Source of the DNA: Lentisphaerota bacterium
GTDB lineage: Bacteria > Verrucomicrobiota > Kiritimatiellia > JAAZAB01
DNA length: 34,081 nucleotides
Direction of reading: 5' to 3'
NCBI GenBank assembly: GCA_012514555.1
Contig: JAAZAB010000501.1
Span: 1-34,081, forward strand
The notes under the pieces were generated by a model. The model searched no databases and was not told the origin of the DNA. It worked only from the letters and a program-made list of their open reading frames with translations. Made by a program: the position numbers and the translations under genes. Shown here piece by piece: positions 396 through 30,189 of this stretch; within the stretch, counting starts at the first letter, position 1, and each line of letters opens with the position of its first letter.

Positions 396-414
396 AACCC
401 GCAAAATCCGGGTT
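396..414. terminator. Hairpin between convergent genes (AACCCG-caaaatc-CGGGTT), possible bidirectional terminator
   Basis: Perfect 6-bp stem with 7-nt loop located between the + stop at 369 and the - stop at 414; no U-tract. Confidence 0.35.
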
Positions 415-2579
415 CAAGGCCCGCGCCGAGCCTGCCGGCGCAGGAGTTCCCGATTTGCGCTGTCATCAGTTTTCGGCCCGGCGCCGGCATCCAGTCTGAA
501 GCTGCACAGGCGCGACCCGCTTGAAAAATAGATGCGGCCGCCGAGAATATCGGCGCCGGCCATGATGGGCACGGGCGAGCGGGCCAGGATTTCCAGCGAA
601 TATCCGGCAGGATCAACCCTGGCGATGTTGTGCATGAACAGCACGTAGACTGAGCCGTCCGGGCCTCGCACCAGGTTCCGCGGTCCCTGCTGGTAGCTGA
701 ACGGTCCGAACCCGGCCTCCGTTTCAGCCTCATGCACGAGAACCCTGCGGGCCGGGTCAAACACGAAAAATCGCCGGGCATAGGACAGCTGGAGCGAATC
801 CCAGGGCTCAAAACCCGCAAGCCCGTAGACGAGCCCGCCAGGGCCCGGACACAGCTCCGAATACTCCTGGGCGCCGGGCAGCACGGGCGCCTGCCATTCG
901 ATCTTCCTGGTCCCGGCATCCATGATGTACAATACCGCCTCGTTCGCCTTCCTGACGCCGCCGGACCCCGGTCGGGTTGACGTGCCGCCGAGGAACCTGG
1001 AGCCCGCAATGGCCGCCATGCTCATCGTGGTGTGATCGGGAATCACGGCCGAGTGATCCAGGAGCTCGCGCGATCCGGACTGGATATCCCAGAAAAGAAG
1101 GCCGCCGCCTGTCCGGCCGTAGTCCGGGGCGCCGCCAAGGACGAGCGTCCGGCCGTCGGCGGTAATCAGAGCCTTGTGGGGTCGGTCGATTGTCGGGCTG
1201 CATCCGGTCAGGCGCATCGGGTTGGAATCCTTGTTTCCGATCTCGGTTCCCGTCCATGCGCGCGCCGTATCCCATTCGAGAAGATGTCCGCCCGGATACG
1301 CACCGACATACATCCGGCCGCCATGCGGCGTCATTGCGTTCCACTGCCGGAAGCCGGGGCGCCGCGTCCAGGAGTCCGCGCCAGGGTCGAAAATGAAGAA
1401 GTGTGATCCAGCATTTCCACAAATGGTGCCGTCGGGCGTCGCGGCTACGCCCATGATGAGCCCGCCCGCGGTGGAATAGTCGAAGCTCACGCGCTTCGTT
1501 CCGCCGCCGCGCGGGTCTTCGACGGCGAGCAGCCGATTTTCGAGGTCCAGCCCAACCACCCGCCGGCCGCCGGGGAGATTTCCGTGGAACAGGCCCTGGC
1601 TGCCCGTGACCTGCGGCTTTTCACGCATTCCCGGGCCGTCGCCTTCAATCCTGCGCGCTTCGCCCTTGTAGAACTCCATCCGCCCGCCCCGCGAGCGGCG
1701 GGAATGCACATAGACCCTGCCGTTCACTGCGCGGTAGACCAGCATCAAGCTCCGGCCCGGGCGCCCGGCACCGTCTTCCGGCGCAAAGGATTTTACCGAC
1801 CTTGTCAGCGGCTCGAACATGAGAACCTGCGAGTCCGCGAGGCCTACGCCCATGTAAATCCAGCCTGCGTCGTCGGCGGCAATGCTTCGCGGGTATTGCG
1901 CCCAGTCCCTCGGGTACAGGCGGCCGTAATCCTTGAGCTCGCGCGTTCCCGGATCGAAGGAGACAAGGCCGTTTTGCGGAAAGGTCGCGGACCAGATCAC
2001 GCCCCTGTCATCCTCGGTCATGCTCATGGCCATTTCAGGCGTCGTCTCCCGGTGAAAGGTGAACGCGCGCCGCACGGGATCGAACTCGCAGAAATACCCG
2101 CTGAAATGCGTGTACAGCTTGTTTGAGCTGGACAGAATGGAAGCGAACGCAGAGCCGCGGGGCTCGAATGGCATCGGGAACTGCTCGCTCGCGCCCGTGT
2201 CAGGGTCAATCATGAGCAGGGCATAGCCGCCCCGGCAGTCGCCCAACTGGACCAGCACAACATCGCGGCCGGCTCCGTCGGAGGTCGCAATCATGCCGAG
2301 GCATGATGCCGTTGGCGCGGCCATGCCGTGATCGGCAAAACCGTTCCCGAGCTCGACTGTGCCGGGGCGTTCCGGAGCCCTGGCTGAGACCGTCTTGATT
2401 GCGGGCGGCCCGGGGCGGAATATTCCGCGGGCCGCGGCCGCGTCGAGCCTGCCGGCGCAGGCCAGCGCTCCAATCATACACGCGGCCGCCCGGATCGCCG
2501 GCTTGCCGCGCCGCGCGGAGAATGCTTTCGCCCGTTCCGAAAGAGAAGCGCTGCGGCGCTGTTCGCGTGTGTGCCACAT
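414..2579 (-). CDS. Secreted two-module beta-propeller-like protein (A-B module order)
   Basis: Long ORF (listed 414..2684). ATG at 2579 (MWHTREQRR...) follows AAGGAG, and an Ala-rich hydrophobic stretch follows (signal-like). Repeated propeller motifs: FxxFDPxxR, DDAGWIYMGVG, PDGTICG, GGRIYFSSGSRLCSF. Homologous to the ORFs at 26162, 28294, 16656 and 19312. Confidence 0.8.
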   Translation of the reverse strand: MWHTREQRRSASLSERAKAFSARRGKPAIRAAACMIGALACAGRLDAAAARGIFRPGPPAIKTVSARAPERPGTVELGNGFADHGMAAPTASCLGMIATSDGAGRDVVLVQLGDCRGGYALLMIDPDTGASEQFPMPFEPRGSAFASILSSSNKLYTHFSGYFCEFDPVRRAFTFHRETTPEMAMSMTEDDRGVIWSATFPQNGLVSFDPGTRELKDYGRLYPRDWAQYPRSIAADDAGWIYMGVGLADSQVLMFEPLTRSVKSFAPEDGAGRPGRSLMLVYRAVNGRVYVHSRRSRGGRMEFYKGEARRIEGDGPGMREKPQVTGSQGLFHGNLPGGRRVVGLDLENRLLAVEDPRGGGTKRVSFDYSTAGGLIMGVAATPDGTICGNAGSHFFIFDPGADSWTRRPGFRQWNAMTPHGGRMYVGAYPGGHLLEWDTARAWTGTEIGNKDSNPMRLTGCSPTIDRPHKALITADGRTLVLGGAPDYGRTGGGLLFWDIQSGSRELLDHSAVIPDHTTMSMAAIAGSRFLGGTSTRPGSGGVRKANEAVLYIMDAGTRKIEWQAPVLPGAQEYSELCPGPGGLVYGLAGFEPWDSLQLSYARRFFVFDPARRVLVHEAETEAGFGPFSYQQGPRNLVRGPDGSVYVLFMHNIARVDPAGYSLEILARSPVPIMAGADILGGRIYFSSGSRLCSFRLDAGAGPKTDDSANRELLRRQARRGP

Positions 2580-2616
2580 GCGGTCATGATCTCCTTGATC
2601 TTTTCGGCAAAGCCGG

Positions 2617-5600
2617 CTATTCCCATTCCACGACCAGCATGTCGTGCACTTCGAAATCGCGAAGCAGGGCCGTGACGCCGCCATTGCCGGCAGTGAACTT
2701 TACGGCCGTCTTTGTGTCCGGGTAGAAAATGCTTTTCACCGTTTTGCCGGCGTCAGGATTCACGGCCAGCCTGGGCGCTTTCACCAGCGGCAGCCTGGCG
2801 TCGTAGTTGAGCAGGTGCACCATCATGCGGTTATGCCCAGGCTGGCTGCGCAGTGTGACCTCCGTTTCCAGACCCACGCCCGTGATTTCCGCGGGCAGCG
2901 CCGCATTCCGGAACGCAAGCCCGCCCGCAACCATGGCGGCGAGCAGCTCGCGCACGTTCGGCCAGAAATCCTTGCGATTGGGCGCCATCTCCCACTCCGA
3001 ATCAACATGGCACAGCCCGGGATAGATCGGAGTCCAGAAGTAGCAGAGCCCTTCGCCGAACCTGTTGGCGATCAGCGCCGGATCGCCGTTGGCGAACCTT
3101 GCCAGCGTTTCCGCGGAGCCCGGCTTAACCTTGTCATAGCCCAGGGGCATGTCGTACTCGCAAGCGGTTTCCGGTCCGATTCCCGGCAGCAGGGGCGTTG
3201 CCGCGGCCGCGGTCTTGTACGTGCCGATGGACTTGACCGGCTTGATGCCGCGCAGCACATGATGCTGCACTCCGGGGCGGTCCATGCTTGATTCCACGGG
3301 CGCGGGCAGAGCCCCGTGCTTGAAACGCATCGTATCGTTTTCCGCGGGCTTTGTTACGCCGGCAAAGCCGGCATAGTCCGCGCCAAACACGTCGGCCAGC
3401 AGGTAATTCTTTCGCGGCGCCGGCTTCCGGTCAAAGAGCGTGCTTGATCCGCCCGCAATGAGAACCCCGCCCTTGTTTACCCAGTCTCGGACCATTCCCG
3501 CCTGCGCGTCACTGAGCATCTTGACGTCGGCCATTACGAGCACCTTGTAGCGCGCGAGTTTTTTGGGCGACAGGGTTTCGGCCCAGATGACGTCCGCGGG
3601 AACCTGGGACTGCTGCAGGGCGGTCCAGAGCGAAGACTGATGCTGCAGCCAGCGGCCGCCAAGGGAGGAGGCCTCGTCGAACATGCACGCCGTGCTCTCG
3701 CTGCAGAGCTGGGCCACGTTGGCGGCCGACTCGGGAATTGCCAGGTACTCCCTGATGCCGGCCGCCTTCTGGAAAATGGCCCGGAAGCTGTCCCAGCGCG
3801 TGGCGTCCCATGTCCAGTTCGCGCCGGTATTGTATTTGAATATGTGCTCCAGCGCAAAGTTGTAGAAGCATTCCCCGTGCATGAGATGCTGGGCAAACCC
3901 GCGTATCTCGTGGGCCGGCGACGGCGTGTACCAGTTGTAGAACTCGCACATCACAGGCCGGGCTTCCCCGTCCTTATACATTTCCATCAGGAACGCGTTA
4001 TCGCGGCCGAAACACTGGTAGGTTTCCGGCCCATTCACCGTGATCGTATCCCCTGCCGGGCCGGTAAGGCCGATGTACGACGCAAAATGCGACCCCGACA
4101 CGCTGAATGTGAACACGCACCCTTTCCTAAGGCCGCGCAGCCAGTCCTGCGTCTCGCCCCAGTAGTCCAGTATCCGCTCAGCCCCGAATTCGAGGCAGTC
4201 CGTTGACGCGTTCATGCTCTCGGCCATGCTTTCTCTGAACCGCGCATCCTTCGGCGGCAGAACGAAATCGGCGCCCAGCCCCAGCTTGGCGCGGAAATCG
4301 GGCCCGTATTTCTTTGTCAGCCATTCGTAGAAATCGCCCGCCGTGGCCTTGATCCCGGGATATGTCTCCTCGCTCCAGAACCCGACGAAGGCGGGCATGT
4401 CCCGGAGCTTCGCCAGCACCAAGTCGCCAGAAGCCTTCTCGACTCCGGACTGGGGATTGTCCCCGTAATACGGCGCGCGGTACGGAAAGGTGTTCACGGG
4501 CAGAACGTCTATCCAGATCAGGCCCAAGTCCCCGGCAGCCTCGACCAGGCGAGCGTACTGGTCCGGGTCCGCATCCTGGTCGCCCCAGGCATTGTGGACG
4601 CCGGTGAATCCTGCTTCCACAAGGTACGGCAGAAGCGTGTTCCCGTCCTCTTTGAACGACGGCGGCATGAGTATGCCCATCGCGCGGCCGGCCAGCGCAT
4701 TGTGGTTGCGGGTAAGCGCATAGTAGGAATCCTTTGACGACAGGAAATCCGGCTGGCTGACTCCGGGCTCGGCGCGGCCACCCGCCTTGATCCCGGCAAT
4801 GGCCAGCTCGCTGTGCCGCTTCAGCCCGAGCCCCTGGGGGGTCGCATAGATGTTGGCAATAGCGGCGCCGCCCGGCCTGCGGGTCCTGGGAAAGTCGTTG
4901 GTGGATGCCGCGAGCGCCTCAAGCGGCGGCAGCGCCGAGGCGTCCCCGATATGGCCCAGCGCGCGCAGCGCCGTGGTCATCCGCCCGCGCTGCTCGCCGA
5001 TGCGCGCATCGTTCTCGGACAGTATCTTCAGCAGGACCGGAACCGCGGACCTGGCCTTGAGCCAGCCGGCGGACATGATGGCGTTTTCCGCAATGAACGG
5101 ATGCGGATCCCGGAGAAGGGCGACGATCGCTTTTTCAGCACGCGCATCCCCGATCTGGCCCAGCGCCTGGATCGCCCGGCTCTTGACGCGAACATCCGCA
5201 CTGCCGAGAAGGCCGAGCAATGCCGGAACAGCCTCTTTGGACTGCATCCAGCCCAGGCCGAGTATTGCTTCAACGCGGACGTTTTCGTTCCCGTCGGAAA
5301 GCGCGGCAACAAGGGCTTTGGCTGATTTCGGGTCGCCGATGCGTCCCAGTTCGCGCACCGCGTCGAGCCTTTCGGCCGCATTGGTTGAGGCGGCGCCCGC
5401 GATCAGTCCGGGGACTTTCCCGGAGTCGGCCCGCCGCTCCGCCGCGAGGCGCTCGGCCTTTGCTTTTCTCAAAAGGGGGCGCAGCTCGCCTATCAATGCG
5501 TCCGCGCGCTTTTTCACCGTGGCAAGGCGCTCAGCCGGGAGAAGCCTTTCGGCAACCGCGCCTTTGGATTCCGCGGGCTTGTCGGCCAGCAGTTCGTCTA

Positions 5601-6591
5601 TGCTCATCCGCGCTATCCGGGAACGCGCCTTTTCAGTTTCCTTTTCAGCGTTGGCGTTCAGCCGCGCCAAATCCCTGGCAAGAGCGCTGATTTCCGATTT
5701 GGCCGCGCCGCGTTTTGCCTCGGGCACAAAGTCGCTCATGTACTGCAGCATGAGCATCCGGCTTTCCAGCGCAATCGCCATGCTGTTGCGCAAGCCGGGA
5801 ATAAGGCCCGGGCCCGAATCCGGCCCGCGCTCGTTCAAGGTCCAGTTCCACAGCGCCTCCCGGCGCAGAAAGTCTTTGTCCGCCTCCGACTGGCGCTTCG
5901 CCTTTTCGGAATCGGAGAGTTTTGGCGCCGCGGCGAGCCATTCCACGCATTTCAGAAGCACCCGGCGCTCCGTGCCCTGCATGGCATTCGACACCGCATC
6001 CATCCCGATGAATGCTCCGAATATCAGGTACCGCCCTCCGTAGACCTCGCCGTAGACCGCCACCGGGTCATCGCCGCTGACCGCGAACACCTTGCCCAGG
6101 GGCCCGACCTTCACCACCAGGTGGTCCCAGCCGCCGGGACAGAACGGCTTGTCTATCGCCTTTGCAAGCTCGCTATCGCCAAAGGCTGAAACGTACGGAC
6201 CGTTGACCCTGTTGAAGGTGGCGCCAACCTGCGGGAATATCGGCCGGTTCCCGGTGCGAACGTACCCGCTGCGAAAGGCCCCGGCAAGAATGCCGCCGCC
6301 GCCGGCCGCGTATTTCACCAGGCTCCGGCGCGCGTTGAAATCGGCGAAGTTGATCGCATTCCAGCCGCCGGGCAGAAACAGCGCGTCCAGCCCGGCCAGC
6401 TTGGAGTCGTCCGACAAATCCTTGCCCTTGAGAATAATTGTCTGCCAGCCGTCTTCCTGGAGGGTTTTGAGCATTCCGTCCGTTATCTGCGAGCGCGCAT
6501 CGTGCCAAAGCCCAACGGTCTTGCCCCACCCCGCGGCGCAGCAGAGGAAGAATGATAGGAACAACGTGGTTTTCAGTATGTTCATGGGCAA
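2617..6591 (-). CDS. Secreted giant: GATase/BPL_N-like N-terminal domain + HEAT repeats + GH42-like TIM barrel and trimerisation-like domain
   Basis: 1324 aa. Signal peptide NILKTTLFLSFFLCCAAGWG; LPGGWNAINF...GGGGILAGAF (GATase/BPL_N-like); five ~31-aa HEAT units (VRELGRIGDPKSAKALVAALSD...); GFWSEE, LVMADVKMLSDAQAGMVRDWVNKGGVLIAGG (beta-galactosidase trimerisation-like). Start is TTG 6591 (7 nt after AAGGAG) or ATG 6585. Confidence 0.82.
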   Translation of the reverse strand: MPMNILKTTLFLSFFLCCAAGWGKTVGLWHDARSQITDGMLKTLQEDGWQTIILKGKDLSDDSKLAGLDALFLPGGWNAINFADFNARRSLVKYAAGGGGILAGAFRSGYVRTGNRPIFPQVGATFNRVNGPYVSAFGDSELAKAIDKPFCPGGWDHLVVKVGPLGKVFAVSGDDPVAVYGEVYGGRYLIFGAFIGMDAVSNAMQGTERRVLLKCVEWLAAAPKLSDSEKAKRQSEADKDFLRREALWNWTLNERGPDSGPGLIPGLRNSMAIALESRMLMLQYMSDFVPEAKRGAAKSEISALARDLARLNANAEKETEKARSRIARMSIDELLADKPAESKGAVAERLLPAERLATVKKRADALIGELRPLLRKAKAERLAAERRADSGKVPGLIAGAASTNAAERLDAVRELGRIGDPKSAKALVAALSDGNENVRVEAILGLGWMQSKEAVPALLGLLGSADVRVKSRAIQALGQIGDARAEKAIVALLRDPHPFIAENAIMSAGWLKARSAVPVLLKILSENDARIGEQRGRMTTALRALGHIGDASALPPLEALAASTNDFPRTRRPGGAAIANIYATPQGLGLKRHSELAIAGIKAGGRAEPGVSQPDFLSSKDSYYALTRNHNALAGRAMGILMPPSFKEDGNTLLPYLVEAGFTGVHNAWGDQDADPDQYARLVEAAGDLGLIWIDVLPVNTFPYRAPYYGDNPQSGVEKASGDLVLAKLRDMPAFVGFWSEETYPGIKATAGDFYEWLTKKYGPDFRAKLGLGADFVLPPKDARFRESMAESMNASTDCLEFGAERILDYWGETQDWLRGLRKGCVFTFSVSGSHFASYIGLTGPAGDTITVNGPETYQCFGRDNAFLMEMYKDGEARPVMCEFYNWYTPSPAHEIRGFAQHLMHGECFYNFALEHIFKYNTGANWTWDATRWDSFRAIFQKAAGIREYLAIPESAANVAQLCSESTACMFDEASSLGGRWLQHQSSLWTALQQSQVPADVIWAETLSPKKLARYKVLVMADVKMLSDAQAGMVRDWVNKGGVLIAGGSSTLFDRKPAPRKNYLLADVFGADYAGFAGVTKPAENDTMRFKHGALPAPVESSMDRPGVQHHVLRGIKPVKSIGTYKTAAAATPLLPGIGPETACEYDMPLGYDKVKPGSAETLARFANGDPALIANRFGEGLCYFWTPIYPGLCHVDSEWEMAPNRKDFWPNVRELLAAMVAGGLAFRNAALPAEITGVGLETEVTLRSQPGHNRMMVHLLNYDARLPLVKAPRLAVNPDAGKTVKSIFYPDTKTAVKFTAGNGGVTALLRDFEVHDMLVVEWE

Positions 6592-6711
6592 TGAGTTTCT
6601 CCTTTCATATGTTCTCTAAATAGCGCGGCAACGGGGGCGTTTCGTACAAGCGCCCGTTCTTGCGCCTGCTGCCCGGAGGACAGCCGAACACGGCCGCGCA
6701 CGCGCATGACG

Positions 6712-6741
6712 CTCCGGCATGGATGACAGCGGGCGCCGGAG
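6712..6741 (-). terminator. Hairpin CTCCGGC...GCCGGAG just downstream of the M55 gene; terminator-like or processing element
   Basis: Perfect 7-bp inverted repeat immediately 3' of the stop at 6748; no clear U-tract. Confidence 0.3.
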
Positions 6742-6747
6742 TCCGCA

Positions 6748-7596
6748 TCAGCTTTTGCCTTTATCAACCCTGGGCGGATCAATTGGAATGGCCTTCAGCA
6801 GGGCTATGATGCTCGTTGGGTGCGACCCGGTCAGGGTTGTGGCCGGATTGGCCCCGTTTGGCCTGTAATGCTTGATCATTTCAAACGGAGGCTTGAGCGG
6901 TATGATGCCGAACGGCTCGCCGGCGGCGCGCCGGACGGCGCGCTCGGCGCCGGCGCGGATCAGTTTTCGGGCGCGCACCGGATGGATGTGAATTGCGGAC
7001 GTGTTGCGGGCCGCATACTGCGCGGCATCGCACTCGTCGCCGCGCCCGGGCGTTATGCCGCGCTTCACCTCAACGGCTTCAATGCCCGGGACCAAGGCCC
7101 CGGCCTCGCTGCAGAACGCGCGGTCGCCGGAGCCGAAAATGGAGCGCACGCCCAGCTCGCTGGCGCACATGGCAAGCTGGCCGAACTCCCCGACCGGCGT
7201 GCCGTTTATCGTGTATTCGAACTTGGCCATGCTGCCGGTGTGCGCAAGGTGCGCGTATTCCGTGCGCGACATCGCGTGCTGCCCCACCCACGCAATGGCG
7301 TCAAATGTCCGGTCAAGCAGGTACGGGTAGCCCTGGGGCATGCCGCGCATCAGCTCGGCCCGCTCGTCCAGCCGCAGCGGGTCTATGGCGCCGCCGTGCC
7401 CGTCATGAACCAGGAATTCAACAGCGCCCGCGGCGGCAAACCCTTCTATTGCCGCGTTGACCTCAAACGTCAGCAGTTCCCTGCACACATCGAAATAGCG
7501 GCCGTTCGCGTAACACCAGTCCAGGGAATTCATCACGCCGGCCACGCCCTCAGCGTCCGTCATTATGTATATCTTTTTCACGCTTCCGCCTTTCAC
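6748..7596 (-). CDS. M55 family D-aminopeptidase (DppA-like)
   Basis: TDAEGVAG, HDGHGG, VGQHAMS, LAHTG, GTPVGEFGQLA correspond to the metal-ligand and active-site motifs of the M55/DppA family. Start GTG 7596 overlaps the upstream TAG; internal GTG at 7581 (VKKIYIMTDAEG) is also plausible. Confidence 0.9.
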   Translation of the reverse strand: MKGGSVKKIYIMTDAEGVAGVMNSLDWCYANGRYFDVCRELLTFEVNAAIEGFAAAGAVEFLVHDGHGGAIDPLRLDERAELMRGMPQGYPYLLDRTFDAIAWVGQHAMSRTEYAHLAHTGSMAKFEYTINGTPVGEFGQLAMCASELGVRSIFGSGDRAFCSEAGALVPGIEAVEVKRGITPGRGDECDAAQYAARNTSAIHIHPVRARKLIRAGAERAVRRAAGEPFGIIPLKPPFEMIKHYRPNGANPATTLTGSHPTSIIALLKAIPIDPPRVDKGKS

Positions 7597-10616: not shown

Positions 10617-10627
10617 TTTCGAGGCGC

Positions 10628-16655: not shown

Positions 16656-19238
16656 TCACTTCCTGGCGGAGCGCTTGAACACCGCGTAAAAAACGCTCAT
16701 CCTTTTGACGCCGCCGGCGTCCTGTTTCTCCAGCGCGGCTTTCTCTTCCGGCTTGAAGCTGATCGTCAAGAGGTTCTCCTGCTCCCTGAGCGCGTCGTCC
16801 GGCACGGGCAATCGCAGAGAGGATGCCTCTTCATGCTTGAACGGCGTCGGCGCATTGAACAATTCCCGGCCGTTAAAGGCCACAATCAGATCGCCCGCGC
16901 AAGGCCCGCCCCGCGCCCGGAGCAGCAGCTCAAAACTGTCGTCCAGGTCTTTTTTCCAGAGCCACCGGCTTGCCTCGGCCGGAATCCCGCTGGGCGCCCA
17001 GGCAACCGCGGGCTGGGCGTTGGCTTCGTTCAGCATCAGCTCATCGAGCATATTGGTGGCCGCGGCAACCGGCTCCCATTGCTGGAACACGCGGGCGGGG
17101 ATGAAATAGTCGCCCTTGCCGGGCTCGTAGTCGCCTGACATCCCGGCCATGCGCCGCTGTTCCAGCGATTCGATCGGGGTCGCTTCGCCCGCGAACATCT
17201 CGTGCGCGCCCCAGTTTGGCGCATTGGCATACACGCGGCCGTCGGTGGCCGTGAACGGGCGCCCCACTCCGTGCCGCCTGGACTTTTGCGGAACATAGGT
17301 TCGGCGCTCGCCCGTTGCAGGGTTGTACCCCACAAGCTGGCCGAGCGTGTTTCCTATGCCGACGTACACCCAGCCGGCATCGTCCGCCGCCATGTAGCTC
17401 GTGTACTGACCCCACCCCTCGCTGTTGATGCTGCCGTGATTGACCAGCTTGCGAGTCTCGGGATCAAAGCTCAGAAGCCCGGCGCCGGAATACAGCGACG
17501 CCCAGATCACGCCGTTGCGGTCCTCGTGCATGGACATGGCGCAGCGCCCGGCGGTGCGCGCCGCAAAGGTGAACGTCAGGGTTTTGGGGTCGAACTCGTA
17601 GAAGTGGCTGCCGTAGTGCGAGTAGAAATACCCGCGCTTGGAATGCCAGACCGCGAACGCATTGTCGCCGGCATAGGGTTCCACCGGAATTTTCAGCGCG
17701 GCGCCGCCGTCAACGTCTATCACCAGCATCTTGTCCGTGCCGCCCATGGCGATCCAGGCCAGTGCCATCCTGTGCCCGTCCCCGTCCACGGCCGCGGTCA
17801 TGCCCCGGTTTTCGGCCGCCATGACCGGCGCCCCATGGCTGACTATCCGGCTGGTTTCCGGGCCGCCGGCGGATTCCGGAAGCGCAACGCTGTTGAGATA
17901 TCCGCCGCTCGCAAAGTAGACGCGGCCGCTGACTATTCCCAGTCCTGCGCCGACGCCCCGGCCCGGCATGGCAATCTCCTCGACCTTGAATGTTCCCGGC
18001 GTGATCCTTATGATCCCCCTGCGCAGCCCGAGGTATATCTTGCCGTCCTGGCCCACTGTAAAGGCCTGATTCCCCGTGTGGCCGCCGTACTTTTCCAAGG
18101 GGTCCTGGTGCACCATGTTCATCTCGACGTGAAAGCGGCGACCCTGATCCGGCTCATCCATTATTGTGCCGGCATCCGATTTTTTTGCGCTGATGGCATC
18201 CATCACATCCTCTTCGTGCAACCGGCTCTCCACCTTGTACACGAGCAGCTTTCCGCCCCCGTCCACGCAGTAGTAGAGGTTGTCAGGCCCGGCCGCCATG
18301 CTCAGAATCTCGCCCGCCTCTTTCAGCGGCCCGCTTTGCCAGACCACCTTGAAGTTTGTCATGTCAAGAATGTAAAGGGCGGCCCGGCCGTGCACGGCTT
18401 TCGTTCCGTGCCCGCCTTTGGGGCTCGTGCCGCAGAGCAGGTTGCCGTCCGGCATGGCCGCAATGGCCATTGTGCTGTAGTCCCGGTACAGGTTCTTGTG
18501 GGTCAACACCGCAGATTTCTTCGTTTCCAGGTTGTAGATGACCAGGCCGCCGCCCACGAACCCGTAGCCCGGCTGGCCGCTGATCATTATGTGCTTGCCG
18601 GCGGGATGCGCAAACGCGTTGCGCGGAATGTTCAAATCCGGCGCAAACCCTCCGAGCCTCAGGGGATTGGCCCCGGCTCCGGCCCCGGGCTCAGGCTCCG
18701 ATATCCGCCGGCCGCGGATGGAGGAAGCAGGAGTCCAGGATATGGGTTTTGACGTGTCGATCAGCCAGAACACTCCGCCGGTGTATTGCCCGCCAAAAAC
18801 GTACTTGCCCTGGACGCGCAGGCTTTTCAACCCAATGCTGTTGCCGGGATAGAAATACAGTTCGTTGAGGGCCGGGTCGTAGACGAACAGCTGGCTGGGA
18901 TGCGCCGTGGCGCCGTATATCTTTCCGTCGGGCCCGGCGCACAGAACGGCTATCTGAATCGCGCCCGCATCGTAATCAAAAGGCACAACCCGCTCCCTGC
19001 CGTCGGCCTCGCGCATGTACAGCTTTCGCCCCTGCAAATCCAGGTTGAGAATCCTGCTGCCGTCGGGAAATTCGTTCAGGGTCCGGGTTCGGTAACCGCG
19101 GATCGGATCGACCTTGACAGGCGGTTTTTGAGCCGCCAGCTTCTGCTCCATGGAACGAAAGCTCTGGCCGGACACTGCCTGTGCCGCCAGCAGGACAAGC
19201 AGAACCACGGCGCCGGCGGTGCAGGATATGTGAGTCAT
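16656..19238 (-). CDS. Secreted two-module beta-propeller-like protein (B-A order) with C-terminal jelly-roll/galactose-binding-like domain
   Basis: 860 aa; ATG after AAGGAG; signal peptide (AGAVVLLVLLAAQAVSG). FPDGSRILNLDLQGRKL...SGQPGYGFVGGGLVIYNLE...DDAGWVYVGIGNTLGQ; C-terminus LIVAFNGRELFNAPTPFKHEEASSLRLPVPDDALREQENLLTI. Confidence 0.82.
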   Translation of the reverse strand: MTHISCTAGAVVLLVLLAAQAVSGQSFRSMEQKLAAQKPPVKVDPIRGYRTRTLNEFPDGSRILNLDLQGRKLYMREADGRERVVPFDYDAGAIQIAVLCAGPDGKIYGATAHPSQLFVYDPALNELYFYPGNSIGLKSLRVQGKYVFGGQYTGGVFWLIDTSKPISWTPASSIRGRRISEPEPGAGAGANPLRLGGFAPDLNIPRNAFAHPAGKHIMISGQPGYGFVGGGLVIYNLETKKSAVLTHKNLYRDYSTMAIAAMPDGNLLCGTSPKGGHGTKAVHGRAALYILDMTNFKVVWQSGPLKEAGEILSMAAGPDNLYYCVDGGGKLLVYKVESRLHEEDVMDAISAKKSDAGTIMDEPDQGRRFHVEMNMVHQDPLEKYGGHTGNQAFTVGQDGKIYLGLRRGIIRITPGTFKVEEIAMPGRGVGAGLGIVSGRVYFASGGYLNSVALPESAGGPETSRIVSHGAPVMAAENRGMTAAVDGDGHRMALAWIAMGGTDKMLVIDVDGGAALKIPVEPYAGDNAFAVWHSKRGYFYSHYGSHFYEFDPKTLTFTFAARTAGRCAMSMHEDRNGVIWASLYSGAGLLSFDPETRKLVNHGSINSEGWGQYTSYMAADDAGWVYVGIGNTLGQLVGYNPATGERRTYVPQKSRRHGVGRPFTATDGRVYANAPNWGAHEMFAGEATPIESLEQRRMAGMSGDYEPGKGDYFIPARVFQQWEPVAAATNMLDELMLNEANAQPAVAWAPSGIPAEASRWLWKKDLDDSFELLLRARGGPCAGDLIVAFNGRELFNAPTPFKHEEASSLRLPVPDDALREQENLLTISFKPEEKAALEKQDAGGVKRMSVFYAVFKRSARK

Positions 19239-19311: not shown

Positions 19312-21852
19312 TCACTTCCTGGCGGAGCGCTTGAACACCGCGTAAAAAACGCTCATCCTTTTGACGCCGCCGGCGTCCTGTTTCTCCAGCGCGGCTTTCT
19401 CCTCCGGCTTGAAGCTGATCGTCAAGAGGTTCTCCTGCTCCTTGAGCGCGTCGTCCGGTACGGGCAATCGCAGAGAGGATGCCTCTTCATGCTTGAATGG
19501 CGTCGGCGCATTGAACAATTCCCGGCCGTTGAAGGCCACAATCAGATCGCCCGCGCAAGGCTTGCCTTGCGCCCGGAGCAGCAGCTCAAAACTGTCGTCC
19601 AGGTCTTTTTTCCAGAGCCATCGGCTCGCCTCGGCCGGACCCCCGCCGGGCGCCCAAACCGCGCAGGCCCGGCCTTTGACTGCGCCGCCTTTGCCCTCGC
19701 CGGTCGCGCTGTTTTCCGCGTCACCAAGCTCCCAGTTGCGAAATGCACGGGCCGGGATGAAATAGTCGCCCTTGCCGGGCTCGTAGTCGCCTGATTGCTC
19801 GGCCAGGCGCCGCTGTGCCAGAGCCTCGATCGGGGTCGCCTCGCCCGCGTACATTTCATATTCGCCCCACCCGGGCGCCGTGGCGTAGACCCTGCCGTCG
19901 GTTGCAGCCAACGGGCGCCCCACTCCCTGCTGCCTGGACTTCTGCGGAACATAGGCGCGGCGCTCGCCCGTGGCAGGGTTGTACCCCACGACCTGGCCGA
20001 GCGTGTTCCCTATGCCGACATAGACCCAGCCGGCATCGTCCAATGCCATGAAACTGGGGTACTGCCCCCAGGCCTCGTTGTTCATCGCCCCGTGGTCAAC
20101 CAGCTTGCGCGTTTTCGGGTCAAAGCTAACAAGCCCGGCGCCGGGAAAAAGCGAAGCCCAGATCACGCCGTTGCGGTCCTCGTGCATTGACATTGCGCAG
20201 CGCGAGGCAGTGCGTTCTCCAAAGGTGAAGGACAGGGTCTTCGGGTCGAACTCGTAGAAATGGCTGCCGTAGTGCGAATACCATAAGCCGCGGGTGGAGT
20301 GCCACACGGAGAACGCGTTGTCGCCTGCATAAGGCTGCACCGGAATTTTCCGCCCGGCGCCGGTTTCGACATCTACAGCCAGCATGTTATCGGTTCCGCC
20401 CGCGGCGATCCACGCCAAGACGACCCGATTGCCCTTTCCGTCCAAAGAAACAGTCATGCCTCGGTTTTCAGCGGTTCGCACCGGCGCGCCGTGGTTTGCG
20501 ATCCCGCTGTCTTTCGAGGCGCCCGTGGCTTCGGGCAAGGCAATGCTCCTCAGGCATCCCCTGCTCGCGAAGTAGACGCGGCCGCCGACAATGCCCAGCC
20601 CCGCCTCGATGCCGCCCTCCGGCACGGCGAGTTCCTCAACATTGAAGCTGCCCGGCGTGATCCTGACAAGCCCCTTTTTAAGGGCAAGGTACAACTTGCC
20701 GTCCGGGCCGGGCACAAATGCCTGATTGTCCGTATGGTTCCCGTACTTTTCCAGGGCATCCTTGTGCACCATCTTCATCTTGACGTCATAGCGCCGGCCC
20801 GGGTCCGGCTGTTCGGCGCTTCCGGGCAGTGCCCGGCTCTCCACCTTGAACACCAGAAGGCTGCCGTCGCCGTCAACGCAATAGTAGAGGTTGTCAGGCC
20901 CGGCCAGCATGCTCTGAATGGAAAAAGCCTGCTCAAGCGGCCCGCTGTTCCAGACAACTTTCTTGTCGCGCCAGTCGAGTATGTACAGGGCTGCCTGCGT
21001 GTGCGGCGCGGCAGTGCCGTGCCCGCCCCGCGGACTGGTCCCGCAGAGCAGGTTGCCGTCCGGCATGGCCGCAATGCCCATGGTGCTGTAGTCGGGAAGG
21101 AGGTCGGTATGGACGAGCTTCGTGATTTGCCGCGTTTCAAGGTTGTAGATGATCAGGCCGCCGCCCATAAAACCGTAGCCGGGCTGGCCGCTGATCATGA
21201 TGTGCTTTCCGTCCGGATGCGCAAAAGCGTTGCGCGGCATGTTCACGACCGGCGAAAAGGCTCCAAGGTTTGCAGGGTTGTCCGCGGCGCCGGCCGGGGC
21301 CGGGGCCGCGGTTATCGTCCGGCCTGTAACGGACGCCTTTGGGGACGCGGTGATGGGCGCGGACGTATCCAGCAGCCAGAACACCCCGTCAGAGTAGTGC
21401 CCGCCAAACACGTGCTTGCCATGAACGCGCAGGCTTTTGAAGGCGATCTTCACGCTGGGATAGAAAATCAATTCGTCCAGCGCCGGATCATACACGAAAA
21501 GGCGGCTGGGATGGGCCGTGCTGCCGTATATCTTGCCGTCGGGCCCAGCGCACAGAACGGCCACGTAGATGGGGCTCCCCTCGAAACTGATGGGCACGGA
21601 GCGCTCGGCGCCATCCTCCTCGCGGACGACAAGCTTCTTTGTCTCCAGGTTCAGGTCAACAAGTTTGCTGCCGTCCGGAAATTCCCTAATGCTCCGGCTT
21701 GCCTGGCCCCGAATCGGGTCAACGGCAGCCGGCGGGTCTAGTTCAGCCATGATTTTTTCCATCTTTCGCACTCCCTGTGCTTTCCCATTTTCCATGGCCA
21801 GCAGCGACAACGCTACAAACAACCTCGCTGCGAATCCATATTCTACCTTCAA
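19312..21852 (-). CDS. Two-module beta-propeller-like protein (B-A order) with C-terminal jelly-roll-like domain; tandem paralog of 16656..19238
   Basis: 846 aa, colinear with the 860 aa protein over its length; hydrophobic N-terminus (FAARLFVALSLLAMENG); last ~104 aa differ at 3 positions. Listed start is TTG, so the exact start is uncertain. Confidence 0.8.
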   Translation of the reverse strand: MKVEYGFAARLFVALSLLAMENGKAQGVRKMEKIMAELDPPAAVDPIRGQASRSIREFPDGSKLVDLNLETKKLVVREEDGAERSVPISFEGSPIYVAVLCAGPDGKIYGSTAHPSRLFVYDPALDELIFYPSVKIAFKSLRVHGKHVFGGHYSDGVFWLLDTSAPITASPKASVTGRTITAAPAPAGAADNPANLGAFSPVVNMPRNAFAHPDGKHIMISGQPGYGFMGGGLIIYNLETRQITKLVHTDLLPDYSTMGIAAMPDGNLLCGTSPRGGHGTAAPHTQAALYILDWRDKKVVWNSGPLEQAFSIQSMLAGPDNLYYCVDGDGSLLVFKVESRALPGSAEQPDPGRRYDVKMKMVHKDALEKYGNHTDNQAFVPGPDGKLYLALKKGLVRITPGSFNVEELAVPEGGIEAGLGIVGGRVYFASRGCLRSIALPEATGASKDSGIANHGAPVRTAENRGMTVSLDGKGNRVVLAWIAAGGTDNMLAVDVETGAGRKIPVQPYAGDNAFSVWHSTRGLWYSHYGSHFYEFDPKTLSFTFGERTASRCAMSMHEDRNGVIWASLFPGAGLVSFDPKTRKLVDHGAMNNEAWGQYPSFMALDDAGWVYVGIGNTLGQVVGYNPATGERRAYVPQKSRQQGVGRPLAATDGRVYATAPGWGEYEMYAGEATPIEALAQRRLAEQSGDYEPGKGDYFIPARAFRNWELGDAENSATGEGKGGAVKGRACAVWAPGGGPAEASRWLWKKDLDDSFELLLRAQGKPCAGDLIVAFNGRELFNAPTPFKHEEASSLRLPVPDDALKEQENLLTISFKPEEKAALEKQDAGGVKRMSVFYAVFKRSARK

Positions 21853-24900: not shown

Positions 24901-25878
24901 CATGTCCGCCGCGGCCTTGCTGTAGTTCTCGTCGAGCTGCTTGACGAGCCTCCTCAAATCGCCCTCCGCCGCCATGCACCTGTCATAATCCTTGCCGGAC
25001 AGATACTGCGACATGTGCTGCAGGGTGTACTGCCGGCTTTGCAGAACGAGCGCATGGCGGTTGCGGATAGCGGGCAGGATGCCCGGAGCGCGGTCCGGCC
25101 CGCGCCCGTTCAGCGTCCAGTCCATGGTTTTCTCGCGCCTCAGGAAATCAAGCAACGCCTGCGCCTGGTGCGCGGCCCTGTGGGCCTCGCCGAGCTTGGG
25201 CGCGGCGGCCAGCCAGTCGAGCATCTTGAGCAGCACCTGTTTCGATGTTCCATCCATGGCGTTGGTCGCGGCGGCCATGCCGATCGGCGCGGCGAACACA
25301 ATGTACCGGCCGCCGTACACGCTGCCATGCGCGCCAATCGGGGCGTTGTCGCCCGGGCTGACGGCAAAGATCGTTCCGAGCGGCCCGACTTTCAATACTC
25401 CGTGATCCCGGCCGCCGGTGAAAAACGGCTGGTCTATGGCCTTGGCAAGTTCGGAATCTCCAAAAGAGACGACGGTTGAACCGTTGACCTTGTTGTAGAC
25501 TTCAGCGACCTGCGGGAAAAGGGGGCGGTTGGCCGTGCAGACGTACCCGCCGCGAAATGCCCCTGCCAATATCCCCTTGCCGCCCGCCGCGTACTTGACC
25601 AGGCTGCGCCGGGCATTGAAGTCGGCAAAATCGTACACATTGTTCCCACCCGGCAGGAATACGACATCCATTCCGGCCAGCTTGGCCTCGTTCGCCAAGT
25701 CCGGGGCCGTCAGCATCGTGACCTGCCAGCCTGCTTCCCGAAGCGCTCGGAGCATTCCGTCCGTAATGCCCGAACTTTCATCCCTGTAAAGCCCAAGAGT
25801 CTTTCCCGGGCACATGCCTGTTGCGCACAGCCAGACCAGCGACACGATCGCCGGCAGCGCCCTAGCAATCGAACTCAT
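21925..25878 (-). CDS. Secreted giant: GATase/BPL_N-like domain + HEAT repeats + GH42-like domain; paralog of 2617..6591
   Basis: 1317 aa; SD GGAGG-aaaaa-ATG; signal peptide ALPAIVSLVWLCATGMC. Colinear with the 1324 aa protein (GITDGMLRALREAGW, FADFNARRSLVKYAAGGKGILAGAF, HEAT units, GFWSEE, RGFAQHLAHGECFFNYD, MLREWVNAGGVLIACG, LGYDKVKPGTAEVLASFANGDPAL). Confidence 0.82.
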   Translation of the reverse strand: MSSIARALPAIVSLVWLCATGMCPGKTLGLYRDESSGITDGMLRALREAGWQVTMLTAPDLANEAKLAGMDVVFLPGGNNVYDFADFNARRSLVKYAAGGKGILAGAFRGGYVCTANRPLFPQVAEVYNKVNGSTVVSFGDSELAKAIDQPFFTGGRDHGVLKVGPLGTIFAVSPGDNAPIGAHGSVYGGRYIVFAAPIGMAAATNAMDGTSKQVLLKMLDWLAAAPKLGEAHRAAHQAQALLDFLRREKTMDWTLNGRGPDRAPGILPAIRNRHALVLQSRQYTLQHMSQYLSGKDYDRCMAAEGDLRRLVKQLDENYSKAAADMADRISRMAITDLTVDRSPQSRDAYVEQLMPAARMKAMTAVGDNAIAELRPIVAAAKAAKRAAEHARDLAAVPGLIGKCAAPEASARRAAASELGRIGSPDSAPALVKLLKDEDGDVRVEAIIALGWLQAKEAVPDLIAHASGNDPRMRRRAVQALGQIGDSRAIAPLLGMLADKDYFVRENAILALGWLKAKEAVPELLKIVSTFDRRNAGQRGLMVSAIRALGHIGDPAALPAIQSLAKIAMDQASDMRNNRVNYLSSPLSPGLEGHARPAAAEIMAGGLPEPGIKQAAFLSASAAFHGLTGDFNALAGRPDSFTGGDMALLWPYLWEAGMTGVNAAWGVGKADEGKFPEIVRAAGDLDLRWINPLPMGGNKTYSQFRAGADKNDIERVLMAFKNEPAFSGFWSEEAQWAIPASSAGFTEWLEKRHGPGFRKKLGAAEGKDPLELARARESTAGGSTPMKAEYMLYCAETLLDSLREAQEWMRGFRKGCAFAWSGSGGGTFSLPGVPGRAGSVIDLNGPEENQCFGRHNTFLLEMCKDGEPRPVMGGLRNWYSPSPEHDIRGFAQHLAHGECFFNYDISQVFEQASEYPMWAWDASRWARLRKIFRKARSMREYVAVPESGANVALVLSGLSCASFYPSADAQDENRWLQHQVAMWTALSQSHIPSDIIWAETLTPGKLRRYRVLVLAGARIVTEEQAEMLREWVNAGGVLIACGAASLYDHWALQRKDYLLSDLFGLGYVDNIGVADPAKIDTYCLGRDGAAAKAVSGPDQENFARVVCRGIKPVQSLGLYKAADKASALLPGVAAGTACEYDMPLGYDKVKPGTAEVLASFANGDPALTVNKAGNGLCYFWTPVYPGLCHLASEWEATPNKYDFWPNVRELLAAMVRGGLEYRKAALPIEVSGISKEVEVTVRRQPEQNRLMVHLLDFDTKSSRVQGAKIFVNPPEGKTIKRIFHPDTGLDVAFEASGSGVSANLRGFESHDMVVVQY

Positions 25879-26161: not shown

Positions 26162-28135
26162 TCATTTTGAAGCGGACGCCGGCCGCGCGGCCGGCGATTG
26201 TCGGGCAACATCGGGCGTTTCGGCGCCGGTCTTAGCATTGTCCGGTAGCTTGAAGCTGCAGAGATGCGAGCTGCTGGCAAAATACAGGCGGCCGTCGAGG
26301 CAGGCGCCGCCGCAGTCGCCGCTTATGGGCAGCGGCGATTCCGCCAGGAGAACAATGTCGCGCTTCTCCGGCCTGAGCCGGCCTATGCCTCTTTCGAACA
26401 GGACATAGAGCTCGCCGCCCGGGCCGGGCACGAACACGCCCGAGCCTTCCGCTGGAATAACCGGGCCGATCTTTTCGCCAATATCCTCCTCGTGAATCAC
26501 CTTGCGCCGAACGGGATCGAAAACGAAGAGCTTCCTCTGGTCCGCAAAGCCATAGACCAGCCCGTCCCTGGCGAGCGCGAGGTCCCTGTAGAACTGCACC
26601 CCGGGAAAGGGCGCCTTGCTCCATTCCACGGCCTTGGTTGCCATGTCCATGATGAAAAGCTCCGCCTCCTTTGCCTTCACCTCTCCGCCCTGGCCCGTGC
26701 GGGTCGCCGTGCCGCCGAGCAGCTTGCCGCCCGGCAGGGCCACGAGGCTGTATGTTGAAAGGTTGGGAGCAACGTTCGTGTGCGCGAGCAGAGTGGGCGT
26801 TTCGGCGCTGCGATCCCAGAACAGAAGGCCTCCGCCCGTGCGGCCATACCCGGGCCGGCCCGCGAGAATTATGGTTTTCCCGTCAGGGTGCGCCAGTATG
26901 CGGCGCGGCGAGTTTATCACCGGCGCGCAAGCGAACAGGACGCGGGGATTTGAATTCGTACGGCCGGGCTCGACCCACTCGCGCGCCGGATCCCACTCGA
27001 GCAGAATGCCGCCCGTGTAGCAGCCGGCGAACACGCGGCCGCCCTGAAGGCAAACCGAATTCCATGGCTTGTACGTGCCGTGCCGGACCCAGCGGTCGCT
27101 GCGCGGATCGTAACTGTAGAACCGCGCCGAATGCATCGTGGTGCCGCTGATCATGCCGTCTGGCGCGACAATGATGCTCCTCATGTTCGAGCCTTCGCTC
27201 TCGTAGTCGAAGCGCACCCGCTTCGCATCGTTGGTAGCCGGCCCGGCCACGACGAGCTCGCGCTCCACGAGATCCACTTTCGCAAGGCGCCGGCCGTCCG
27301 GAAAGGACATCTGGTCCCTTCTCCTTCCGAAAGCCGCCCGCCCGGGCGGCCTGCCTTCGACCTCGCAAGCCGAGCCCGCATGACACTCCAGCCACCCATC
27401 CTTCCTGCCCACTGAGACGTAAACCTTGCCGTTCCCGGCCCGGAACACCGATGCGCTCCCGGGACGCCGGTCCTTCTCGGCAACCAGGGTCTTGACGGTT
27501 TTAGACCTAGGATCGAAAGCGATAGCCTGGAACATGGTGTTCCCGACGCCCCAGTAGACCCAGCCGGCGTCGTCCAGCGACAGGCCGCCCGGATACTGGG
27601 CCCAGTTCTGCTTGTAGAGCTGGCCATAGTCCTTGAACGCGCGAGTCTTGGGATCGAACGAGACAAGACCGCTCTGCGGATAGGTGACAGACCAGATCAC
27701 CCCGTTTTCATCCTCGATGATGTTCATGGCCATCTGCGGGGCAGTGTTTGTGACAAACGTGAACGCCCGCGCAGCGGGATCGTATTCGCAGAAATGGCCG
27801 CCGAAATGAGTGTAAAACCTGTTGCCGCGCGAGAGCAGCGTGGAGTAAGGCGTATCCCCGTCCGCGGGAAAAGGCACGCTCAGCTGCGCGCTCCTGCCCG
27901 TGTCCGCGTCCACCTCCAGGAGCGCAAACGCGCCGCGAACGCCGTGCAGCCAGACCAGCGCCAGGTTGCGGCCCTTCCCGTCAACGGCTGCGGCCGTGCC
28001 GCGATTTTCGCTGACCGGGGCGGCTATTCCATGATCGGCAAAACCTTTGCCCAAATCCCGTGTTGCCGCGCCGGCCGGGCCCGCGAAGATGACCGCCGCG
28101 CTCAGAATGCTTCTTAAACAACGCGCAAATCTCAT
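26162..28135 (-). CDS. Secreted two-module beta-propeller-like protein (A-B order)
   Basis: 657 aa; SD GAGAGGA; signal peptide RSILSAAVIFAGPAGA. LGKGFADHGIAAPVSENRGTAAAVDGKGRNLALVWL ... DDAGWVYWGVGNT ... FPDGRRLAKVDLVERELVV ... GRPGYGRTGGGLLFWD. Confidence 0.82.
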   Translation of the reverse strand: MRFARCLRSILSAAVIFAGPAGAATRDLGKGFADHGIAAPVSENRGTAAAVDGKGRNLALVWLHGVRGAFALLEVDADTGRSAQLSVPFPADGDTPYSTLLSRGNRFYTHFGGHFCEYDPAARAFTFVTNTAPQMAMNIIEDENGVIWSVTYPQSGLVSFDPKTRAFKDYGQLYKQNWAQYPGGLSLDDAGWVYWGVGNTMFQAIAFDPRSKTVKTLVAEKDRRPGSASVFRAGNGKVYVSVGRKDGWLECHAGSACEVEGRPPGRAAFGRRRDQMSFPDGRRLAKVDLVERELVVAGPATNDAKRVRFDYESEGSNMRSIIVAPDGMISGTTMHSARFYSYDPRSDRWVRHGTYKPWNSVCLQGGRVFAGCYTGGILLEWDPAREWVEPGRTNSNPRVLFACAPVINSPRRILAHPDGKTIILAGRPGYGRTGGGLLFWDRSAETPTLLAHTNVAPNLSTYSLVALPGGKLLGGTATRTGQGGEVKAKEAELFIMDMATKAVEWSKAPFPGVQFYRDLALARDGLVYGFADQRKLFVFDPVRRKVIHEEDIGEKIGPVIPAEGSGVFVPGPGGELYVLFERGIGRLRPEKRDIVLLAESPLPISGDCGGACLDGRLYFASSSHLCSFKLPDNAKTGAETPDVARQSPAARPASASK

Positions 28136-28289: not shown

Positions 28290-28293
28290 CGCG

Positions 28294-30189
28294 TCACACG
28301 CGGTAGCTGTAAATCCGGGAGCCGGAGGCAAACCAGATGCGCCCGTCCTGCCATGCGCCCCCCGCGGCAATCGCCACAGGCGAGCGCGCAACCCAGGACA
28401 GCTTGAATGTGACCGGGTCCGCCTGCGCGATTCCGTTTCGGAACAGAAGGAAAATCCGGCCGTCCGGCGAAATCACGATCTTGCGCTGGCCCTGCTGCAG
28501 GTGCATTGGGCCGAAACCCGGGGCCGTCTCCTCGCGGTATATGATTTCGCGGCGCGCCGGATCAAAAACAAGGAAAAGCTTCTCTTCGTCCATCAGGCTT
28601 GGCTCGTAAACGCGGAAGTCCGCGAGCCCGTAGATCAGGCCGTCGGGCCCCGCACGCAGCTCCGAATATTCCTGCGCGCCGGGAACAAGGGCGGCATGCC
28701 ACCTTATTTTTTTCGTGGCGACGTCCAGTTCGTAAAGCTCAGCCTCTTTTGCGCGCACCTGGCCGCCCGTGCCCGCGCGCGTTCCGCTGCCGACCAGCAG
28801 GTTGCCGCCAGGCAGGGCTGCAAGCGACATTACACAATGATCGGCCAGCAGTTCCGTGTGTTTCAAGAGCGTGCTCGCGTTGGCCGCCCGGTCCCAGAAC
28901 AGAAGCCCCCCGCCGGTGTACCCGTACCCGGGCGTTCCGCCCATCACGATGGTCCGGCCGTCGGGATGCGCCAGGATGGCGTGCGGCCGGTTGATGTCGG
29001 GCTCGCATATGGCTAGAACCCGGGGATTGCTATCCGGCACGTTTCTGCGTGGCGCCGCCCAGGGCCGGACCATGTCAAGTTCCAGAAGCATGCCCTCGGT
29101 GTACGCGCCGATAAAAACGCGCTCGCCTTGATAATCCAGGACGTTCGTCTGGCCAAACACGTCCTCGTGCCGGCTTGCGCCGGTCGCCGGATCGAAGGTG
29201 AAAAACCGCATCGGAAACGCGGCGCCGCCCCCTATCCTACCGTCCGGCAGCGCGGCCACCTCCATAAGGTGCGCGCCTTCGCTCGGATAATCAAAACGCA
29301 GCGTTTTTTCAGATTGCGCCCCGGGGTCCTCCACCACCATTACGCGGTTCGTCAGGTCAAGCGTCTTGATTCTTCTGCCTGAGGGAAACTCGCGGTGAAA
29401 CGGCCAGATCGAGCCGCCAATGATCTTTTTCTTGTTCTGCGGCGGCTGCCCGGTCAATTTGACGGCCCTGTCGCGGCGCAACTCGTACCACTGGCCGTCG
29501 GACCAGTGCTTTTCATCGGAAAGACCGTAAACCTTGCCGTCTTCATCCCGGTACACATGCGAAGTCGCGTTCGGGACCCGGTCCTCTTCGGCCAGCAGAG
29601 GAACGGCCTTGCCGGATTCCGGATCGAACGCAATGAACTGGCTTAGCGTCTTGCCGACCGAAAAATATATCCAGCCGCCGGCATCCGCCGCCAGCGTATA
29701 AGGATACTGCCGCCAGTCCTGGCAATACAGAGAACCGTAATCCCGAAACTCGCCCGTGCGCGTATCGTACATGCACAAGCTGCTGTCCGGGAATGATGCC
29801 GCCCAAATTCGCCCGCCGTCGTCCTCAGTCATGCCGATTCCCAGCCGCGACTTGGTTTCGTGAACAAACGTGTAGGAGCGCGAAATGAGGTCGAACTCCA
29901 CAAAGCGGTGCTTGAACAGGGTGTAAATGCGGCTTTTAGAGGAAAACATCAGCGCAAACGGAGCATTGCCCTCCGGCAGAAACGGCATCGGGTATATGTC
30001 GGCCTTGCCCGTATCAGCGTCAATCGCCATCAGCGCAACGCAGCCCGAGGAGTCCGCCAGCCATGTCAGCGCCACATCCCGGCCGTCCTTGTCCGCCACC
30101 GCGGCAACCCCGCGGGTGCTGCTGACCGGCACCGCCACGCCATGGTCCACAAAACCGTTTCCACAATCGCGAGCCTTTCCTACATTCAC
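28294..30189 (-). CDS. Two-module beta-propeller-like protein (A-B order), apparently without signal peptide
   Basis: Listed ORF 28294..30216; GTG at 30189 (VNVGKARDCGNGFVDHG) lies 7 nt after AGGAG, so it is the likelier start. Same motifs as the 657 and 756 aa proteins (FVDHGVAVPVSSTRGVAAVADKDGRDVALTWL, GTPGYGYTGGGLLFWD). Confidence 0.8.
   Translation of the reverse strand: MNVGKARDCGNGFVDHGVAVPVSSTRGVAAVADKDGRDVALTWLADSSGCVALMAIDADTGKADIYPMPFLPEGNAPFALMFSSKSRIYTLFKHRFVEFDLISRSYTFVHETKSRLGIGMTEDDGGRIWAASFPDSSLCMYDTRTGEFRDYGSLYCQDWRQYPYTLAADAGGWIYFSVGKTLSQFIAFDPESGKAVPLLAEEDRVPNATSHVYRDEDGKVYGLSDEKHWSDGQWYELRRDRAVKLTGQPPQNKKKIIGGSIWPFHREFPSGRRIKTLDLTNRVMVVEDPGAQSEKTLRFDYPSEGAHLMEVAALPDGRIGGGAAFPMRFFTFDPATGASRHEDVFGQTNVLDYQGERVFIGAYTEGMLLELDMVRPWAAPRRNVPDSNPRVLAICEPDINRPHAILAHPDGRTIVMGGTPGYGYTGGGLLFWDRAANASTLLKHTELLADHCVMSLAALPGGNLLVGSGTRAGTGGQVRAKEAELYELDVATKKIRWHAALVPGAQEYSELRAGPDGLIYGLADFRVYEPSLMDEEKLFLVFDPARREIIYREETAPGFGPMHLQQGQRKIVISPDGRIFLLFRNGIAQADPVTFKLSWVARSPVAIAAGGAWQDGRIWFASGSRIYSYRV

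Follow-up and report, generated by a model that had tools for sequence, protein, structure and literature searches.

We analysed a window of 34,081 nucleotides that is an entire contig (JAAZAB010000501.1, our C473) of a Lentisphaerota bacterium metagenome bin (GCA_012514555.1; 3.2 Mb, 571 contigs, 88% complete). It encodes five paralogous double β-propellers, all in one array on the minus strand. Two of them, P0011 (19312..21852, 846 amino acids (aa), TTG start) and P0010 (16656..19238, 860 aa), are natural circular permutants of an un-permuted family. The other three, P0014 (28294..30216, 640 aa), P0013 (26162..28135, 657 aa) and P0001 (414..2684, 756 aa), carry a sequence module A followed by a module B (A–B), whereas P0011 and P0010 carry B before A (B–A) and end in an additional tail. 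Window coordinates are on the minus strand unless stated otherwise. We are reasonably confident in the explanation as a whole, in which a secreted double propeller of six plus seven blades, likely to act on glycans, was permuted within its first propeller, captured a C-terminal tail and was then duplicated.

The five open reading frames (ORFs) and their module orders were as the first-pass annotation had described them. In an all-against-all BLASTP comparison, the A–B proteins matched each other colinearly over their full length (43–45% identity), as did the two B–A proteins (69%). Every comparison between the two orders instead gave two off-diagonal blocks, in which A matched A with 30–40% identity (E values 1e-32 to 1e-54) and B matched B with 27–32% identity (1e-40 to 1e-51). 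The dot-plot comparison that the annotation had suggested, run here as BLASTP, aligned aa 6–268 of P0013 with aa 433–684 of P0011 (39%, E 4e-54) and aa 273–638 with aa 53–445 (32%, E 4e-51); both blocks were off-diagonal. Module A did not match B as well as it matched A, as cross matches were at noise level (best 33 bits, E 2e-4). Generic blade similarity was also considered as an explanation and was rejected. Once the A–B members had been rotated in silico, all five proteins could be aligned end to end. The secondary structures of P0011 and P0013, assigned by DSSP to their AlphaFold models, agreed with a Matthews correlation coefficient of 0.83 over 594 aligned residues, compared to −0.40 to 0.15 for shifted registers. 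In Foldseek searches the best matches common to both models were double propellers, BT4663 first. The BLASTP blocks, the rotated alignment and the agreement in secondary structure together support the proposed circular permutation of two modules, and with it the proposal that such a change is tolerated in closed or tandem propellers.

The blades of P0013 were read from the DSSP string of its AlphaFold2 model (87 sequences; predicted local distance difference test score (pLDDT) 91.3, predicted template modelling score (pTM) 0.89). In our reading there are thirteen, A1–A5, X and B1–B7, so that module A holds five blades and module B eight. The last blade has three strands and no fourth, and an ordered extra strand (aa 26–37, 28025..28060) lies ahead of A1. 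We then asked which blades close onto each other, by a mean-field coevolution analysis of 205 sequences (163 effective) in which scores were normalised for blade size; an earlier run on 87 sequences proved too noisy to stand alone. B1–B7 and A1–X were the two top scores of the 66 non-neighbouring blade pairs, and a 6+7 split came out ahead of 4+9, 5+8, 7+6, 8+5 and 9+4. A single 13-blade ring and a first propeller that includes B7 were considered and rejected. Thus, computation supports a six-bladed propeller 1 (P1), predicted to consist of module A plus the first blade of B (aa 43–308, 27212..28009), and a seven-bladed propeller 2 (P2) made from the rest of B (aa 318–629, 26249..27184).

Could modules A and B themselves be the two propellers, with the permutation having only swapped the order of intact domains? 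At the sequence level they are clearly distinct modules, separated by a long linker, and coevolution across A5–X is weak. However, this would require rings of five and eight blades, and neither of the closures that it needs is supported: of all 78 blade pairs, A1–A5 ranked 61 and X–B7 ranked 30, compared to 5 for A1–X and 4 for B1–B7. The boundary at which natural recombination has exchanged propellers also lies at X|B1 and not at A5|X, as described below. We therefore regard this alternative as unlikely. With AlphaFold, coevolution and recombination all placing the edge of the ring one blade into B, the two modules do not coincide with the two propellers, which revises the reading of the first-pass annotation, and the permuting cut falls inside P1.

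The recombination boundary was revealed by L058 (positions 5911–7836 of its locus), the closest relative of the permuted pair, which has the A–B order and is 60–67% identical to P0011. In L058, P0010 and P0011, P1 comes from one subfamily and P2 from another: per-blade identity switches from the subfamily of L059, L063, L171 and L173 to that of L070, L184 and L185 between X and B1. P1 and P2 gave conflicting trees, and forced agreement was rejected by the approximately unbiased test (p = 7e-6 for P1 and 5e-5 for P2, values that are optimistic because the groups were named after the first pair of trees). When partitioned at A|B, the same test was weak (0.025 and 0.116). The switch in blade identity and the conflict between the trees identify X|B1 as the natural exchange boundary, which differs from the permutation cut at A5|X. 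Members of a subfamily comprising L070, L100, L120, L129, L184 and L185 share a large insertion near blade B2; four of the five tandem genes of L070 contain it.

The N-terminal strand (aa 26–37) probably closes P2; from DSSP and by analogy with PorZ of Porphyromonas gingivalis, we propose it to be the outer strand of B7. In PorZ, the outer strand of the final blade of propeller 2 is supplied by an N-terminal segment, after which come a four-residue linker and propeller 1 (PMC5121618). P0013 shows the same succession of N-terminal strand, short linker, propeller 1 and propeller 2, with a linker of five residues and a strand pairing inferred from DSSP. PorZ is also secreted, has two propellers followed by a β-domain, and possibly binds glycans (PMC5121618). 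It differs in having 7+7 rather than 6+7 blades, in ending in a type IX secretion system C-terminal domain rather than a glycosidase tail, and in being un-permuted; it was not among the matches of a sequence search with the propeller family. If the analogy holds, the ancestral A–B chain would have run from the outer strand of the last blade through P1 (A1–A5, X) to P2 (B1–B7), with P1 inserted into P2, the chain ends meeting and a strand closing the ring.

The cut and the joint could be mapped by comparing P0011 with L058. L058 ends in 'HLMSISL', directly behind the third B7 strand; its mature chain starts at about 'EDITDHGVPVSAAENRG'. At the joint, P0011 reads 'CLRSIALPEATGASKDSGIANHGAPVRTAENRG': about 12 residues connect the old ends, and the signal peptide has been lost. 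The A5–X loop of L058, 'AGEATAIDAEEPPVKPHPRRGGGSSVVREWPDGS', is divided in P0011 between its first conserved stretch, 'DPPAAVDPIRGQASRSIREFPDGS', and the end of A5, 'AGEATPI', after which the tail begins. The loop was therefore split near its middle. From the alignment, model and DSSP, P0011 now starts with blade X, the sixth of P1 (about aa 55–87, 21592..21690), followed by a continuous P2 (B1–B7, about aa 97–455, 20488..21564). The joint is a linker of ~12–14 aa (aa 439–452, 20497..20538) leading from the last B strand to the old N-terminal strand of A, and blades A1–A5 of P1 (about aa 462–674, 19831..20469) now lie C-terminal to P2, ahead of the tail (19315..19830). P0010 has the same layout by BLASTP and alignment, with a B module (blade X and P2, 17835..19091), an A module (A1–A5, 17169..17813) and a glycosidase-type tail (16659..17168). 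With the cut inside P1, a P1-in-P2 arrangement would have been converted into P2-in-P1, in which the permuted P1 is probably closed by a whole N-terminal blade rather than by a strand.

Which order came first was apparent from the distribution of the family. A scan of GTDB 220 genome contigs gave 125 confirmed stretches, of which the best 80 were covered, and 78 loci were kept, from Armatimonadota, WS1, Zipacnadia, Planctomycetota, Lentisphaerae, Verrucomicrobia, Hydrogenedentota, Gemmatimonadota, Latescibacterota, Poribacteria, Omnitrophota, Bacteroidota and other taxa. All kept loci showing both modules were A–B, as were all further homologs from whole-genome scans of one phylum (289, 346, 198 and 384 genomes in overlapping sets, or ~1,200 whole-genome searches, with metagenome contigs outside the scope). 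Five more matching places on other contigs of the same genome were A–B wherever both modules occurred, and searches of viral contigs and plasmids found no relative. When all ORFs of all loci were scanned with profiles, 227 homologous ORFs were obtained, 198 of them nearly complete. The only order inversions were the window's own pair, found via several overlapping loci, and a weak blade cross-match in L031, which was not counted as a second inversion. Hence, within the searched genome contigs and phylum genomes, no B–A order was found beyond P0010 and P0011.

In separate trees of A and B, L058 was sister to P0010+P0011 (Shimodaira–Hasegawa-like approximate likelihood-ratio test (SH-aLRT) support 100 in both), and P0010 and P0011 paired with support of 99 and 98. 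Identities to L058 for A and B were 0.63 and 0.64 for P0011, and 0.64 and 0.58 for P0010. Since all other homologs are A–B and the pair is nested among them with L058 as sister, the B–A order is derived and apparently arose once and recently; since the trees pair P0010 with P0011 inside the L058 clade, the permuted gene was apparently duplicated afterwards. The two classes of the first-pass annotation are thus neither equal nor both old, as B–A was found only as this tandem pair within the A–B clade. Comparison of the P0010 and P0011 propellers gave 0.22 non-synonymous (dN) and 0.76 synonymous (dS) substitutions per site, which shows that both permuted copies are under purifying selection.

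The nearest relatives also bear on whether the permuted proteins are a fusion of B and A from two different paralogs instead of one gene permuted. The next-nearest relatives of P1 and P2 do differ, and the lineage is therefore chimeric, but un-permuted L058 shares this chimerism, which must be earlier than the permutation. L058 is moreover the sister for both A and B, with matching identities, and we consider such a fusion improbable. Fusion of unrelated paralogs after the divergence of L058 was considered separately and rejected. The sister test gives the same outcome for a single gene and for two near-identical tandem copies, the latter being the duplication route discussed below. An assembly or reading-frame artefact might be suspected in a bin of 571 contigs that is 88% complete, but is very improbable given two separately diverged copies that share the same permutation and are both open and under purifying selection. 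That B–A is ancestral and A–B derived from it is least credible of all, as its sole point is the presence of both orders in one locus, against ~200 A–B homologs in many phyla among which the B–A pair is nested.

From just after A5 onward, P0011 and P0010 match over their final ~170 residues the C-terminus of a GH84-like β-N-acetylglucosaminidase encoded in the same genome (for P0011, 41% identity over 169 aa, E 4e-36). That protein contains the GH84 catalytic domain (PF07555, E 2e-16), which is absent from both permuted proteins; the tail alone had no Pfam match. The tail was thus acquired from the 3' end of a gene for a GH84-like glucosaminidase. Immediately upstream of one A–B propeller gene lies a second GH84-like gene, which carries the tail in a weaker form. 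Over the last ~95 tail codons (16659–16946 and 19315–19602) the DNA of P0010 and P0011 is 95–99% identical and fourfold sites are 93–100% identical, compared to roughly 70–80% for the DNA elsewhere and about 50–65% for fourfold sites over most of the propellers. This excess in identity argues for recent gene conversion of the tails.

How might the permuted gene have arisen? Head-to-tail A–B arrays are frequent, with four genes in L059 and five in L070, and in L060 the opening of one frame is no more than a codon away from the stop before it. As such arrays are common and B–A can be reached from them in few steps, the likeliest route would be a head-to-tail A–B duplication in which B of the first copy fused to A of the second and the outer halves were lost. 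The meeting ends would thereby have become linked, in the progenitor of P0010 and P0011, by ~12 residues with loss of the signal peptide, and a new start and stop would have been placed in the long A5–X loop of P1. The new start would then have acquired a signal peptide of its own and the new end would have fused to the last ~170 residues of the glucosaminidase gene. Duplication of the permuted gene would have followed, and gene conversion would have made the two tails alike. We infer this route through tandem duplication from the arrays; it retains the duplication and truncation of the first-pass annotation as the likeliest course, while the fused intermediate sought alongside it was not found.

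From genomic context, which includes polysaccharide-utilisation loci and glycosidases, the family fairly probably binds or processes glycans outside the cytoplasm; a catalytic role is less likely. P0013, P0010 and P0011 have signal peptide-like N-termini. In Parapedobacter pyrenivorans (Bacteroidota; L097, 40–13505) the propeller gene lies between a heparinase II/III–glucuronyl esterase fusion and SusC/SusD, with an amidohydrolase also in the locus, and other family members adjoin GH95 or GH141-like genes. The entry faces of P1 and P2 may be the glycan-binding surfaces, and the near-invariant residues Y181, Y373, N396 and Y430 (P0013 numbering) are candidates for them. Two longer proteins also contain A–B propellers. 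In L062 (7969–12576, 1536 aa) the propeller shares one chain with an N-acetylmuramoyl-L-alanine amidase (Amidase_3) and with fn3 and Ig domains, and in L002 (172–3510, contig C243 of the same genome, 1112 aa) it lies behind FG-GAP repeats and an ASPIC/UnbV-like domain.

Several points weigh against the explanation given here. P0011 was modelled from fewer sequences (an alignment of 54 rows, including 40 B and 12 A fragments) with a pTM of 0.74 and a tail, at most putatively jelly-roll-like as the first-pass annotation had it, that was not confidently modelled, and the two models were compared through DSSP strings and fold matches. Coevolution gave no signal between the N-terminal strand and B7, nor at the A5–X interface (rank 48 of 78). 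No fused A–B–A or B–A–B intermediate occurred among the 227 homologous ORFs, and the naming of groups after the first trees bears on the recombination test, as noted. The family itself is uncharacterised, and its binding or catalytic residues are at best candidates.

Known double propellers resemble the family in part. The sensor domains of BT4663 and BT4673 (4a2l, 4a2m, 3ott) were the best fold matches of both models (E about 1e-16), and 4a2l was the best sequence-profile match, over one short stretch (E 6e-10). BT4663 is likewise a double propeller and functions in carbohydrate sensing, but proteins of this type are membrane sensor kinases with a Y_Y_Y domain, whereas in the family here Reg_prop (PF07494) stayed below threshold (15.7 bits against a cut-off of 20.4) and no kinase domain was found. 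The WD40 proteins AIP1, EMAP and Utp (1nr0, 4ci8) are tandem propellers of similar length (template modelling scores of about 0.36–0.40), but are eukaryotic 14-blade proteins with about 10% identity to the family.

Permutations and differing velcro positions are common between distant families of single propellers, and these, like the engineered velcro permutants Pizza and WRAP-T, demonstrate that a propeller can accommodate relocated termini (PMC2213659, PMC8458387). Those cases are single, distant or engineered, whereas here a natural double-propeller permutant occurs with a 60–67% identical un-permuted relative. In terms of the engineered proteins, P2 loses its 1–3 velcro closure by becoming continuous and P1 gains termini between blades. 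On balance we favour the view that permutation exchanged host and guest propellers in a family that also swaps whole propellers at another boundary, with both forms coexisting in one genome and purifying selection acting on the permuted copies. The order of events is lost for many natural circular permutations, which are old and were deduced from distantly related proteins. In this case the permuted pair can be compared with its un-permuted sister and with un-permuted paralogs from the same genome, which allows the cut site and the joint, as well as the linker, the lost signal peptide and the captured tail, to be placed with a precision of a few residues. This makes direct tests of how a fold survives permutation possible, including whether the permuted fold loses stability, which propeller folds first and whether the tail compensates. 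It also defines a secreted double-propeller family without a Pfam or NCBIfam model (a scan of the five propeller ORFs found no family at its cut-off), widespread in Verrucomicrobiota, Planctomycetota, Armatimonadota, Hydrogenedentota and other phyla in sugar-polymer contexts.

Around the propeller genes, P0012 (21925..25878, 1317 aa) has HEAT repeats and GH42M/ThuA-like domains and is a paralog of P0002. The two ~1320-aa paralogs (2617–6591 and 21925–25878) each adjoin a propeller gene, and the locus may contain a partial duplication. Directly downstream of the permuted pair is P0009 (15749..16618), a xylose-isomerase-like TIM barrel (PF01261, E 7e-28). D-amino-acid-type genes are grouped at 6748–8393 and 14026–15555: P0003 (6748..7596), an M55 peptidase of the D-aminopeptidase family (PF04951, E 4e-46); P0004 (7596..8393), of the Asp/Glu racemase family, scoring above the cut-off for the cysteate racemase CuyB; and P0008 (14026..15555), a D-aminoacylase-like amidohydrolase (PF07969, E 5e-24). 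P0015 (30366..31847, plus strand), divergent from the array, was read off its translation as a PAS and sigma54-activator-type regulator, and homologs of it are encoded near two other members of the propeller family. As called, P0014 has no signal peptide, unlike its paralogs, possibly from an error in its start or sequence. The ORF of P0001 overlaps the upstream gene and has ~100 N-terminal residues in excess; a later start fits the family better, and its first ~100 codons are probably untranslated.

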